Assembly (NCBI RefSeq): GCF_001625195.1
Contig: NC_054389.1
Span: forward strand, 6,506,520 to 6,570,519
Origin: Drechmeria coniospora
Taxonomy: Eukaryota; Ascomycota; Sordariomycetes; Hypocreales; Ophiocordycipitaceae
Reading direction: 5' to 3'
Length of the DNA stretch: 64,000 bases
Position numbers and translations under genes: made by a program. The notes under the pieces were generated by a model. The model was not told the origin of the DNA and did not search any database. It was given only the letters and a program-made list of their open reading frames with translations. This document shows positions 1 to 26,200 of the stretch, piece by piece (within the stretch, counting starts at the first letter, position 1; every line of letters begins with the position of its first letter).

Positions 1-637
1 CGCCACTATGTATTTCAAGTCAGGCGCCGACAAGGTCTCCATCGGCTCCGATGCCGTCATCGCCGCCGAGGAGTACTACTCGCTCGGTCGCAAGCTCTTT
101 GGAAACACGGCCATTGAGCAAATCTCTCGTGCCTACGGCAACCAGGCTGTCGTCGTCAGCCTAGATCCCAAGCGCGTGTACGTGCCCAAGCATGACGCCA
201 CGCGCCACAACGTCATCTCGACGCGCTTTCCCGGTCCCAAGGGTGAGGCCTTCTGCTGGTATGCCTGCACCATCAAGGGCGGCCGGGAAACGCGCGACAT
301 GGACGTCGTCGAGCTTGCGCAGGCCGTCGAGGCCATGGGAGCCGGCGAAGTGCTGCTCAACTGCATCGACAAGGATGGCTCTAACAGTGGCTTCGACCTC
401 GAGCTCATTGCCCAGGTCAAGGCGGCAGTCAAGATCCCTGTCATCGCCTCCAGCGGCGCCGGAAACCCGAGCCACTTCGAAGAGGTTTTCAAGATGACCA
501 CCACGGACGCGGCTCTAGGAGCAGGCATGTTCCATCGTGGCGAGTACACGGTCAAGCAGGTCAAAGACTTCCTGAGCGAAAAGGAGCTGTTGGTGCGAAG
601 ATTCGATGGCGAGCTGGACACAAAAAAAGGGGAATAG
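1..637 (+). CDS. HIS7: Imidazole glycerol phosphate synthase, C-terminal (HisF) part, partial
   Basis: This is the 3' part of the bifunctional histidine-biosynthesis enzyme that joins a glutaminase (HisH) and a cyclase (HisF). It converts PRFAR plus glutamine-derived ammonia to imidazole glycerol phosphate and AICAR in the cytosol. The frame is open from the first bases, so the gene begins outside the window; about 211 codons are present. HisF barrel signatures are visible: [12 protein letters not shown] near the start, VVSLDPKRV (the conserved catalytic Asp strand), [15 protein letters not shown] and [14 protein letters not shown], the last two being phosphate-binding barrel strands. The end, with the [10 protein letters not shown] helix, fits the normal C-terminus of the fungal enzyme. 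No intron is seen in this part. It converges on the antizyme gene to the right. Confidence 0.95.
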
Positions 638-981: not shown

Positions 982-1962
982 CTACAACTCCATGCCCATG
1001 AATACCCATTTTTTGCTGGTGACATCCAAATCACCAGCCCAGTGGTCGAGTGTGGTCATTTCAAAGCCTACCCACTGTAGACTTTTCGTCAAAGCGAGAG
1101 CTTCGTCGGCGGTCATGCGACGATCGATGCAAGTGACAATGTGGCTGCAGTTCAAGGGGCCATCGGCGAGCTCAATGAGGGCCATGAGCCTGGGGCGGGT
1201 GTTAGGACAAAATTTTGAAACCCATCAGCGTGGGTAGGTTGGCGGGCGACTTACGCTCTCTTGAGATCTCTCCCAACGGATCCTTGAACATCGAAGAAGA
1301 CAAACAAAGATCTCTCATGCCCATTGTGGGCGACAAAGGCGCGGAAGCTGGCGCCGCCAGCATAGTCCCAGACCTCCATCCAGGAATCAATCTCGAAGGC
1401 GCGGGCATGAGGACTTGAGACATCGTGACCGTTAAGCTCCAGAGCGATGTGTTCCTCTGGCGGTGGCGTCTGCAAGTAAGCACCTGACAGGCCGGAGCCA
1501 TTCATCGACTGGTTCCCCTCACCGTGAAACACAGTCTTCATGGACTCGCAAAAGAATCTCTCACATTCTTCCCTGATCATGAGTGCTGCCCCCCCTCGTC
1601 GCTCCGGGTGGCGACCCGGTGTTTCTGTCCTCTTGCCCGAAGTCTTGGGCAGAAGAGCGAGCTCGTTCGACGAGTTCAGCGCGGCGAGGGGGGGACTTGT
1701 TGGTGGGGATGGGAGTCCTGAGGTAGGGACCTCAGGAATACCACTCCGCCCCTGCACAAGGTGGTTAGCATCCATCTCATGCACCACTCCGACGTGCGAG
1801 GGAATGATGGTTACCTGTGAGCCCCGTAGAGCAGTAGTGGATGCCCTTGAGGAAGGCGGCAGAGTCGACGACGTAGCAGGAGGCAAGGACGCTGACGCGG
1901 GGGGCGACGTCCTCGCCGTAGTTACAATTAAGATTTAAACTCTGATTCATCATTGGCGACAT
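982..1962 (-). CDS. Ornithine decarboxylase antizyme, made by programmed +1 frameshift
   Basis: Antizyme binds ornithine decarboxylase and sends it to the proteasome, lowering polyamine synthesis. Exons read 1962-1815, 1751-1255 and 1189-982; the introns have GT...AG ends and GCTAAC or CCTAACA branch sites. The first frame starts at the first ATG (MSPMMNQS...), contains the typical VLASCYVVDSAAFLKG stretch and stops after 55 codons at TCC-TGA. Skipping one base there opens a second frame (EVPTSGLPSPP...) with antizyme core motifs: EIDSWMEVWDYAGGASFR, ALIELADGPLNCSHIVTCIDR and the C-terminal WVFMGMEL. With the +1 shift the three exons give 853 minus 1 bases, exactly 284 codons including stop (283 aa). 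In this family frameshifting rises with polyamine level, so the site is the regulator. The gene name (OAZ-type) is inferred from these motifs; no search was run. Confidence 0.93.
1716..1737 (-). promoter_or_regulatory. Antizyme +1 frameshift site within a perfect stem-loop
   Basis: The slippery site UCC-UGA occupies 1737-1732. It forms the first bases of a perfect 9-bp inverted repeat: arm TCCTGAGGT, loop CCCT, arm ACCTCAGGA. The UCC-UGA core is the classical eukaryotic antizyme shift site. The exon 1/exon 2 junction lies only 14 coding bases upstream of the UCC codon, so the recoding signal forms only in the exon-2 part of the mRNA. The hairpin is read directly from the sequence; its role in recoding is inference. 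Confidence 0.85.
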
Positions 1963-3811: not shown

Positions 3812-4766
3812 ATGGAGTATTCTCGCGGAGCGTGCTATTCTTGTAAGTGTCCTCCCCCCTATCGCTGCGGGCGAAACGGCAACTGGCGCGGAGAATTATT
3901 ACCACCACGAGCTTCGTTCCGTGCTCCGTTCCGTCTTACGACCCAACCCGAGCATTTGCTGACGAGGGGCAAACAGGCGGTTCTACCGGCCACCAGGTAC
4001 GCATCTCTTGATGATACAAGCTTGCCTCGTCACCCCCTCACACACGCACAGGCCCGTGACTGCCCTACCAAAGGACCTGCTAAGTGGTATGTGCATCTCG
4101 CCACGTCGTGAGTCGGGAAGCTGACTTGGACGAAGCTACAACTGCGGTGGTAAGTGCCCGCAGCACGTGCGATTCGCGATTTGCCTGCGCTCCCTGACAC
4201 CAAGACGCATAAAGGCGAGGGTCACATGAGCCGAGACTGCTCCGAACCCCTCAAGGAGAACAAGTCCTGCTACAAGTGCGGCCAGCCCGGCCACATCTCC
4301 CGCGACTGCCCTCTCGGCGGCGGCGCCGGCCAGGGTGGCCAGGGCCAGGCTACCGAATGCTACAAGGCAAGTGGAGCGAGCAGAGCTGTCGAGCGACGGC
4401 AGGCTGACGACGAAGCAGTGCGGTGAGGTCGGCCACATTGCTCGCAACTGCAACAAGGCTGGATTCGGCGGCGGCGCTCCCTACGGCGGCGGCGCTGGCG
4501 GTCCCGGCGGTTACGGCGGCGGCGCCGGCAAGACGTGCTACTCTTGCGGCGGCTACGGCCACATGTCTCGTACGTATAACCGTTGTGCCGCGCTGCGGAA
4601 TGGCTCCTAACCCGTGCCAGGCGAGTGCGTCAACGGCATGAAGTGCTACAACTGTGGCGAGTCTGGCCACTACTCGCGCGACTGCCCCAAGGAGTCCGCC
4701 GGAGGCGAGAAGATCTGCTACAAGTGCCAGCAGGGCGGCCACGTCCAGGCGCAGTGCCCCAACTAA
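3812..4766 (+). CDS. Seven-zinc-knuckle (CCHC) nucleic-acid-binding protein, GIS2/byr3/CNBP family
   Basis: This is a small protein built from seven CX2CX4HX4C zinc knuckles, the family that includes yeast Gis2, fission-yeast Byr3 and animal CNBP. These bind single-stranded RNA or DNA and affect translation. Exons are 3812-3842, 3977-3996, 4052-4086, 4136-4149, 4215-4366, 4419-4569 and 4621-4766 (549 bases, 182 aa). The joined knuckles are [84 protein letters not shown] and [15 protein letters not shown] Gly-rich linker ([12 protein letters not shown]) lies between knuckles 4 and 5. Two exons are tiny (20 and 14 bases), and the intron at 4367-4418 has a GC donor (GCAAGT) instead of GT. Only that splice restores knuckle 4, which supports the model. 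Confidence 0.93.
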
Positions 4767-23288: not shown

Positions 23289-26200
23289 GGCTGCGGTTCG
23301 GCGGCCGAGGAGGCGATGGAGCATGCAGAGGAGACGGACGAGGTGTCTGTCAGTCGACGAGTCCGGGGGGAATCCGGGGTATCTGGGGTATCGGGAGGAT
23401 TCTGGAGGCGGACGGGTTGGCGGTTTGGAGGCTGGCACCGCCGAGGAGGGGGGGGTGAGGTGAGAGGGCGGACGGATGACGATACAAATACCGTACGGGC
23501 TATCCGTACCGAGTACCTGCGCGCATGACGGCGACTTTCACATGGGGTCGACGCAGCCGTGCCTCTGGCAGGATGGCGAGCTTCGGCGTTGGCTCCAGGT
23601 CCGAGGCTAGGCAGGGTTCGCCGTCGAGTTGGGTCGTACGGAGTTGCCATGCCCAAATCCTGCGAGACGAGGTACCTGCTTCGTTGCACTGTACGGAGCA
23701 CACGTAAGTACAGTACTTACGGAGTAGGTACGGAGTACTCCGCACTTGTGCTCGGTACCTGCAAAGTACTACATGTATAAATAGGTACTTGCGCAGCGCC
23801 CAAATTCACCAGTGCTTGTTTGTATTGCACAGCCCCGGACTGCACCTGCAAGTACTTATTAATAATAAGTAAGTACAACATCAACAATAAATGGCAGTAA
23901 TACTCTGCACGTGGTTGTACAACTACTAGTATTTACGTTATGCAGGCACACAAAGGAAGGCCTTTATACAGTACAAGTGCATGTACAGCAAGTACTCCGT
24001 ACATTCTTACAAGTACTCAAGTACCTGCCAACGGTCAAGTCCCTGCCAACGGTGCAAGTACGGTGTATTACTACTGTACTGGAGGTGTACGCAGTATTAG
24101 TTGGCCGTGTACGGAGTACACCTAGCAATACTGCACGCATAGGAACGACTACTAGGTATTAGGTGTGTGCTCTCTTGTAGGTACCAGCATCTGCAGTGCC
24201 GTCTGTATACGAAGAGTGCAAGTACGGAGTAAGTACGGAGTATTACATGTAAATTACTACATGTACGACCTTGCTGGTCTCTCGAGGAGATGTACTTAAG
24301 TACATACACATGTACGGAGTAAGTACTCCGTGCTCGCCTCGGACATGTACACCTAATACTTGCACAGCAAGTACTCCGTACACATCCAAGAACGCGTTGT
24401 ACTTGCATGTAAGTACTCGTCGAACAAGTCCTGCAGCTTTGCCCCTCATGAATTTACCCCGCCGACAACCGGCCGCCATTTTAGTACGCCATTGTGTCCC
24501 TCATGTGACTTTTACATTATTACTAAGTGCACAAGGACAAGTAGCTCGAGGAGTGGCTCCATGCCGAGCGAATAATATGCCGACGAGACCACAGCGTGCC
24601 ACACCGTACAGTAGTTGCGTCAACTGGTGCCATTGCTGTGCTGTAAGTAGTCTGATCAGGCACTTGGGCCTACTTGTACTTACGTACATGTCGTACAGTG
24701 CATGCTCATGTGCTTTACAAGTACGGAATACGGAGTATTACCGTTTCTATTATTCTGTCCGTAAGTACTGTAGATTTACACACGTACAGTACAGCAGTAC
24801 GTGCACATGCATATTCATACGAGTGAACCAACCTTGTGTGCACGTGCAGGACAATACTGTACTTACAGTACATGTACTCCGTACTCGTAGGCATATTACG
24901 TACTTCAAGTATTAATAATCCGGGAATCCGGGTTAAGCACGTCCTGATTCGGTTGCACTTCTGTTCGTAGCATTATGCAAGCCTCGCGCGAGGAATAAGC
25001 GTGGTATTACGGAGTACTTGTGTAGGTGTACACGCACAACCATCCAGTCCATGTATGCGGCAACGGCCGAGTCCGAGCCTTGCTCGTGGTAGGTTCGAGC
25101 CGCGCGTGCCACCAACCGTAACGGGACAAAGCTTCGGTCAGAGTCGGCGATTTGCTGGGTGCGTCGCATGCGAATTGTGCGACGGAAGGATGCGACGCTG
25201 CTCGGTGCTCACTGCTGGCCGACGCTGCTGACGGGGGACGGAGAACTCGCGGCTAGACCAGAATCAAGCGAGCAGCCGGCAGCGCCCGGGGCTGGGGCAT
25301 GGGAACGACCGACTTGGCCCCACGTCGGAGCGCGGTATAATCAGGTGTGCTGGTAGCACGTGAGCGCCTTCACCATACAAGACGGAGTATTTGCAGAGCA
25401 CGGAGCATTATCATGAAAGTACTTAAGTACAAGTAAGCACACCTACCTTGTACATTTGTACGCAAGTACATTTGCAACCGTACTTATATGAGCCGTACAG
25501 TACACTGGCAGTGCAAGTAATTACTGTACATGTATGTGCGCAAGTGTGCAGTACAGTAAGTGTACAATTTAGCGCACACGTATTATTTATTGATACTTAC
25601 ACCTACTGGTAGTTGTACATGTATGGTACGCTTGTACAGAGTTCATGATGGAGTATTAATTAATTGAGTGTACTGTACGGAGTATCCGTACTACTGTTAT
25701 GTACGGAGTACTTGTGCAAGCAAGGTATGCGTCGCTATGCAAGCTTCGTGTTGATTAATACACGAGCTCCTCCGTACGGATGAAACTGTATCCGTATTAG
25801 TCTCCCACCAATTGCACTGCTAGCAGCCCAAAGGGTCCCCGCCGTCGTGGCTGACGGGATCAACGAGGGCCTGCGCCGCCGAACAAAGGTGTCTTGCGCA
25901 TGCAAAATACTACTCTACTCTACTAGGTACTTACTTATAGTACAGTACGTGCGCTGTACTGTACTCCACACCACACCTACTTGCTGTACTGTACTGTACT
26001 TACAGCTGGTCTGCGCACTAAGGCACAAGTACAGTACACTTGCTGCAAGTAATAGGTGTATTTCATGCACTGACTGTAGCACGATTCCATGGCGGCAAAC
26101 ATGTCTCAGCCGGACGGGACTTGTGCATGCCGTCTCTACTGCAGGTGTACGGAGCGCATGCACCCCGTATGGAGCACACTGTGCCATCATGCAGCCAATC

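Follow-up and report, generated by a model that had tools for sequence, protein, structure and literature searches.

The UCC-UGA frameshift site of the Drechmeria coniospora antizyme gene lies in a short predicted hairpin whose effect is probably modest at most

The analysed stretch of Drechmeria coniospora DNA (64,000 nucleotides, hereafter the window; the fungus belongs by taxonomy to Hypocreales, Ophiocordycipitaceae) carries on its minus strand an ornithine decarboxylase antizyme gene, and the shift site of this gene opens a perfect nine-pair inverted repeat. We estimate at roughly 0.6 the probability that this is an ordinary frameshift site, on which the hairpin has no more than a modest effect, limited to certain clades, during the approach of the ribosome. 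The stem exceeds what is expected from codon choice (0.3–0.7% of draws), and folding predictions indicate that the 9-bp hairpin is a real, somewhat unusual fold open to the free mRNA. Among polyamine sensors antizyme frameshifting is the textbook case, met here in an ordinary polyamine-control gene of a nematode-infecting fungus. Antizyme stimulators of filamentous ascomycetes seem to have been little tested; a 2012 review, in the part available, describes the Pneumocystis, Botryotinia and Emericella antizymes as lacking experimental studies (PMC3432380). The present case offers a concrete element, and with clades possibly keeping the stem and one clade without it, a clean reporter comparison becomes possible.

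The gene resembles a canonical +1 antizyme cassette and is an ordinary fungal antizyme gene (Table 1). Its product matches ODC_AZ in Pfam (PF02100, E 4.7e-47, residues 115–228 of 228), and the closest of the listed protein matches is the D. coniospora antizyme, with 100% identity over the entire query. ORF1 comprises 55 codons and ends in ..GAEWYS-UGA (TGG-TAT-TCC-TGA); ORF2, in the +1 frame relative to it, is open from the GAG at 1733, and the two frames overlap in the manner of an ODC antizyme gene. The coding sequence as modelled measures 853 nt, and a HYCTTG-type exon 1 sequence is common to many relatives. The domain match and the +1 overlap bear out the antizyme identity proposed in the initial annotation, as the gene model does its placing of the exon junction, 14 coding bases (1751–1738) upstream of TCC; its reference to Hypocreales agrees with the taxonomy of the species. 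We infer that frameshifting takes place here: ribosomes would translate ORF1 to ..W-Y-S-UGA, some of them would slip +1 at UCC-UGA and continue into ORF2, and polyamines would promote this slip, as the rest of the antizyme family leads one to expect.

Table 1. Features of the antizyme locus, in window positions
Feature	Position	Strand	Basis or detail
Antizyme exon 1 (ORF1 codons 1-49 + one base)	1815..1962	-	ATG 1962, donor GTAACC at 1814
Intron 1, 63 nt, branch-like GCTAAC, acceptor GTGCAG	1752..1814	-	ORF1 resumes in exon 2 as AEWYS-UGA
Exon 2 (ORF1 end, shift site, first part of ORF2)	1255..1751	-	gene model
TGG-TAT, the two ORF1 codons preceding the shift codon (module A by position only)	1738..1743	-	module A from PMC4505036 (part available)
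UCC-UGA +1 shift site (UGA is the ORF1 stop)	1732..1737	-	gene model
ORF2, antizyme, 228 aa post-shift, split by intron 2	982..1733	-	gene model, ODC_AZ
Intron 2, 65 nt	1190..1254	-	gene model
Exon 3 (ORF2 end, stop TAG ending at 982)	982..1189	-	gene model
Hairpin 5' arm UCCUGAGGU	1729..1737	-	pattern match, fold
Hairpin loop CCCU	1725..1728	-	pattern match, fold
Hairpin 3' arm ACCUCAGGA (ACC TCA GGA, Thr-Ser-Gly)	1716..1724	-	pattern match, fold
Cryptic 3' splice site AG within the 3' arm	1718..1719	-	4th of five AGs examined, only in-frame ORF1-ORF2 fusion

Public fungal antizyme models need care: many bypass the shift site through an intron, and the D. coniospora entry (P0001), without ORF1 and without a frameshift, begins within intron 1 with M-D-A-N-H-L-V-Q, the reading of its last 24 bases (1752–1775, minus strand). 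Intron 2 lies about 480 nt 3' of the ORF1 stop, so that nonsense-mediated decay could act on unshifted mRNAs, and this could be a second polyamine route onto antizyme mRNA. Two short upstream ORFs, of 3 and 13 codons, are present at 2231 and 2341 (minus strand) in the 538 bases searched 5' of the antizyme ATG. The neighbouring genes are the end of a histidine biosynthesis gene (2–634, plus strand; PF00977) and zinc-knuckle (CCHC) reading frames (4154–4607, plus strand), which are probably exons of one gene, presumably CNBP-like.

The inverted repeat at 1716–1737 was found exactly as initially described, with nine pairs, a CCCT loop and UCC-UGA in the 5' arm: read 5' to 3', the minus strand from 1737 to 1716 is TCCTGAGGT-CCCT-ACCTCAGGA, which as RNA gives UCCUGAGGU-CCCU-ACCUCAGGA, so that the 5' arm consists of the codons of the P and A sites and the three bases that follow them. 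This pattern has one match in the window and none in 100 shuffles. The 22-nt hairpin has a predicted energy of -13.8 kcal/mol, and dinucleotide shuffles of equal stability numbered 0/200 for 22 nt, 1/200 for 73 nt and 4/200 for 125 nt. Predicted pair probabilities are 0.81–1.0 in all four contexts, the largest being the whole coding sequence; in each context eight of the nine pairs reach at least 0.85, and the loop-closing pair stands at 0.81. A longer stem reaching into module A (GUGG with CCAU), which appeared in the 73-nt fold, was set aside as no better than synonymous permutation over 50 nt. An Rfam scan of positions 960–2760 with E up to 10 returned 3 matches, none of them to an antizyme family and none at the shift site; an antizyme frameshift element presumably exists in that database. 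In the window, four perfect inverted repeats reach 9 bp or more with a loop of 3–8; another 9-bp one with a 4-nt loop lies upstream of the antizyme start (2881–2902), and one of 10 bp with a 7-nt loop is at 25939–25965 (AGTACAGTAC...GTACTGTACT).

How much of the stem follows from the protein can be counted. With the protein and the shift site fixed, four of the nine pairs are set in any case, and a UCN codon for Ser adds two; the remaining three hang on the third bases of Gly, of Ser, and of Glu with Thr. TCA makes up 8.8% of Ser codons and GGA 12.8% of Gly codons in the 14 long ORFs of the window, from which the codon usage table was built. When codons for E-V-P-T-S-G were drawn by this local usage (n=400,000 in each case), nine Watson-Crick pairs arose in 0.31% of draws, and nine pairs with G-U allowed in 3.4%; when ORF2's own synonymous codons were permuted, the 22-nt fold was equally or more stable in 37/5000 cases (0.74%), all these values being post hoc, as the site was chosen for looking odd. 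Over wider spans synonymous permutation found nothing unusual, folds as stable being reached in 834/5000 cases for 50 nt and 310/1500 for 120 nt.

The position of the stem relative to the ribosome restricts what it could do. When UCC occupies the P site and UGA the A site, stem bases 1–6 are paired with tRNA or read by the release factor. Given the size of the ribosome footprint, bases 7 to about 16 are then in the entry channel. The stem must therefore be melted before UCC and UGA reach these sites and cannot act as a classical 3' stimulator; by the sequence and general ribosome geometry, it is not a structure that could remain at the entry of a ribosome whose P and A sites contain the shift site. 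It would act only before the shift, while codons about -5 to -2 (A-E-W-Y) are being decoded, or afterwards, either by slowing the ribosome on A-E-W-Y or by keeping this stretch out of other pairings in the intervals between ribosomes. The animal-type pseudoknot is likewise encountered with codons -2 to -4 in the P site (PMC5009743, part available), so that an effect on the approach is conceivable. Toe-printing on a basidiomycete antizyme cassette gave no stall according to the accessible part of PMC4505036, a result which, as we read it, does not favour a pause model.

Three protein searches supplied the relatives (the best 120 of 297 matches, the best 120 of 296, and 94 of 94), which combined give 223 proteins, one decoy peptide from a viral contig being excluded. 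The third search was aimed at other classes; the named proteins among its 94 matches are Sordariomycetes by recognised genera, and it brought no new shift region. As an anchor just past the site we used xxG-[LIMVFA]-P-[ST]-P-P, present in 128 of the 223 listed; the site is not visible in the remaining 95, which are left out of the counts. Among the 128, 85 read GIPEVP in the ORF2 frame, 39 skip it by an intron and 4 have other joins ending in V-P, and an altered version of the shift region occurs in none of them. S precedes GIP in 76 of the 85, and because the S-G-I-P reading in the ORF2 frame is absent from the real frameshift product, its constancy argues for a conserved nucleotide cassette. 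Two of the listed proteins, P0221 and P0223, begin M-G-L-P-S-P-P. V-P after the site is constant in all 89 listed proteins that show it, and is followed by ISG (37), STG (24), SSG (17), TSG (8), NSG (1), TTG (1) or FSG (1).

It is the 3' arm that divides these relatives. The Ser opposite UGA is kept in 64 of the 65 listed non-STG proteins showing the site, and in 62 of the 64 an Ile, Ser or Thr codon precedes it, each with a second base, C or U if Ser is UCN, that can pair with G. In all 24 listed Sordariales/Coniochaetales proteins that show the site (the order of most being our assumption) Ser is replaced by Thr, giving Ser-Thr-Gly, which puts A opposite the A of UGA and breaks the pair; GIPEVP is unchanged in 21, that is, in all those of the 24 that show it. 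Ophiocordyceps camponoti-leonardi (P0025, VPTTG) also has Thr with the same shift region. The best synonymous codings reach -15.3 kcal/mol for Thr-Ser-Gly, -13.4 for Ser-Ser-Gly, -12.7 for Ile-Ser-Gly and -8.0 for Ser-Thr-Gly, for which no coding attains -10 kcal/mol. Sordariales and relatives thus appear to lack the full stem, and since GIPEVP is kept in these stem-breaking proteins, the cassette persists without it. Thozetella, of the same subclass as Coniochaeta, has SSG, by which the Thr may be a derived state.

A covariation test would be nearly empty, because six of the nine bases of the 5' arm are UCC-UGA and cannot vary. Viral and genome contigs were scanned for DNA of relatives, and the antizyme was not found in them: two viral-contig loci encoded one identical, unrelated peptide, and a single bacterial locus, with an in-frame E-V-P-P-P-E-C-L-P-S.. 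followed by a stop, was unrelated too. One match, P0015, is filed under the powdery mildew Golovinomyces magnicellulatus (a 1.9-kb contig) and is 71% identical to the D. coniospora antizyme; it reads as Hypocrealean and possibly comes from a hyperparasite or contaminant.

Codon-level evidence on the 3' arm comes from the 39 relatives, among the matches listed, whose public gene models jump from ORF1 directly to G-[LIM]-P-S-P-P. Assuming that they use the normal donor of intron 1, the intron interrupts the codon before the join after one base; this phase is also found in the D. coniospora gene, and the intron-reading models P0034 and P0074 (..G-K-..) fit GGT-AAG. Since the joined Gly needs an intron-end AG, whose A is the last base of the Ser codon and whose G opens the Gly codon, the former codon ends in A and is TCA if it encodes Ser. 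By this inference from gene models, in which only species with the A can show it, the 39 span 21 named genera (Tolypocladium, Metarhizium, Hirsutella, Claviceps, Trichoderma, Fusarium, Clonostachys, Geosmithia, Niveomyces, Hypoxylon, Jackrogersella, Parahypoxylon, Annulohypoxylon, Biscogniauxia, Nemania, Xylaria, Diatrype, Eutypa, Colletotrichum, Cytospora and Pyricularia). TCA would accordingly be present in at least 39 of the 104 non-STG clusters (65 + 39) versus 8.8% in the ORFs of the window, a comparison that assumes similar usage and ignores shared ancestry; in the stem, the U of UGA would be the partner of the A of TCA. The excess suggests more than a mere by-product would leave and points to a constraint at the RNA level, which a stem, a linear element or a cryptic splice acceptor might impose alike. 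A GAG in the 5' arm, implied by P0046, P0140, P0142 and P0149, was discarded as evidence because it is the common Glu codon (0.70) and three of the four models come from the stem-less clade.

The splice acceptor among these candidates is easily located. Five AGs after the branch-like GCTAAC were examined, of which the first (ending 1752) gives ORF1 and the fourth (ending 1718) alone fuses ORF1 to ORF2 in frame, exactly at the join used by the 39 models. The 3' arm could thus be a conserved alternative 3' splice site (CCUCAG/GA) that yields antizyme without a frameshift and is hidden by the hairpin. We regard this as highly improbable: the site is 48 nt from the branch A, versus 14 nt for the normal acceptor, its use would abolish polyamine control, none of the listed Sordariales models uses it, and gene finders would invent just such a join to avoid a stop codon, so that the 39 models are probably artefacts of this kind. 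A decidedly unlikely alternative, though one less easily dismissed, is a linear 3' element, UGAGGUNCC..UCAGG, lying in or at the mRNA entrance channel in contact with rRNA or protein, the pairing being incidental. Counted against the usual ribosome footprint, the Ser codon (bases 17–19 from the U of UCC) falls at its edge, and the constant V-P would suit such an element. In the available part of PMC5009743, 3' stimulators that involve no pairing within the mRNA are reported for Ty3 and suggested for Semliki Forest virus. V-P is, however, possibly constrained as protein, and the Sordariales change from Ser to Thr alters this stretch too.

A functional role for the stem itself is possible, although the odds are well against it. 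Its fullest form, a hairpin kept in most non-Sordariales Sordariomycetes that enhances frameshifting or its polyamine response, either by slowing translation of the module A codons or by folding again between ribosomes, seems to us rather unlikely. The stability above synonymous recoding, the Ser of the 3' arm with its pairing-competent neighbour and the TCA implied in the 39 further gene models all speak for it; yet the stem does not coexist with a ribosome positioned on the shift site, the surrounding 50–120 nt are ordinary against synonymous permutation, the Ile and Ser variants fold less stably than the Thr form even at their best, and Thr breaks the stem in the Sordariales/Coniochaetales and in P0025 with the shift region the same. 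More doubtful still is a combined statement for Hypocreales, Xylariales, Glomerellales, Diaporthales and Magnaporthales, by which the shift site lies in a conserved short hairpin, a rare Ser codon pairs with all three bases of UGA, and an in-frame cryptic acceptor lies in the 3' arm as well, so that the stem tunes the approach of the ribosome or keeps a splice bypass shut, Sordariales having lost it. We therefore return to the ordinary frameshift site as the preferred reading: the 5' arm is dictated by UCC-UGA and by the first codons of ORF2, which hardly vary, the 3' arm would be under some RNA-level constraint outside Sordariales, and the effect of the stem would be modest and clade-limited, or possibly nil.

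Measured against this, the initial annotation fares unevenly. Its picture of a site sequestered until the ribosome opens the stem, in a layout unlike the pseudoknot, is right in that the stem is real and contains the site; the stem as a new kind of frameshift control is unsupported, given that the stem must melt before the shift and that Ser-to-Thr breaks the pairing in a whole group with the 5' arm residues the same. The Ser needed for the pairing is, at the protein level, kept in nearly all listed relatives outside that group and replaced by Thr in those within it. Literature titles on fungal antizyme frameshift signals included none on this stem, with Ivanov and Atkins 2007 and Ivanov et al. 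2000 outside the scope covered, and a sequence-string search of papers gave no fungal-antizyme title among the matches listed; we do not claim the hairpin as unpublished.

Among known systems, the closest is the UCC-UGA antizyme class with +1 frameshifting, with which the D. coniospora gene shares two overlapping ORFs at +1 offset, UCC-UGA itself and ODC_AZ in ORF2; it differs in that its local stem contains the shift site, and no downstream pseudoknot is known in it. In phage T4 gene 60 the stop codon is reportedly located within the stem of the take-off stem-loop. There the recoding codon and its flanks likewise lie in a stem-loop, with a stop codon directly after; the difference is that the system performs 50-nt bypassing in a bacterial phage, and its functionally important stem forms after the codon leaves tRNA pairing (PMC5009743, as far as available). 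The Agaricomycete cassette is also a fungal antizyme signal and combines a conserved module A on the 5' side with a structure on the 3' side, but its site is UUU-UGA rather than UCC-UGA, and its 3' structure, two adjacent stem-loops, begins 19 nt past the site and lies just beyond the mRNA tunnel, in contrast to the stem described here (PMC4505036, available part). The animal antizyme pseudoknot stimulates the same kind of +1 shift, but begins 3 nt 3' of the site (PMC5009743, same part), while the D. coniospora stem contains it. Reading the hairpin as a new mechanism is weakened by these precedents, since stimulators other than the animal pseudoknot are already known from basidiomycete antizymes and a recoding codon within a stem-loop from phage T4 (PMC4505036 and PMC5009743, in the parts available).
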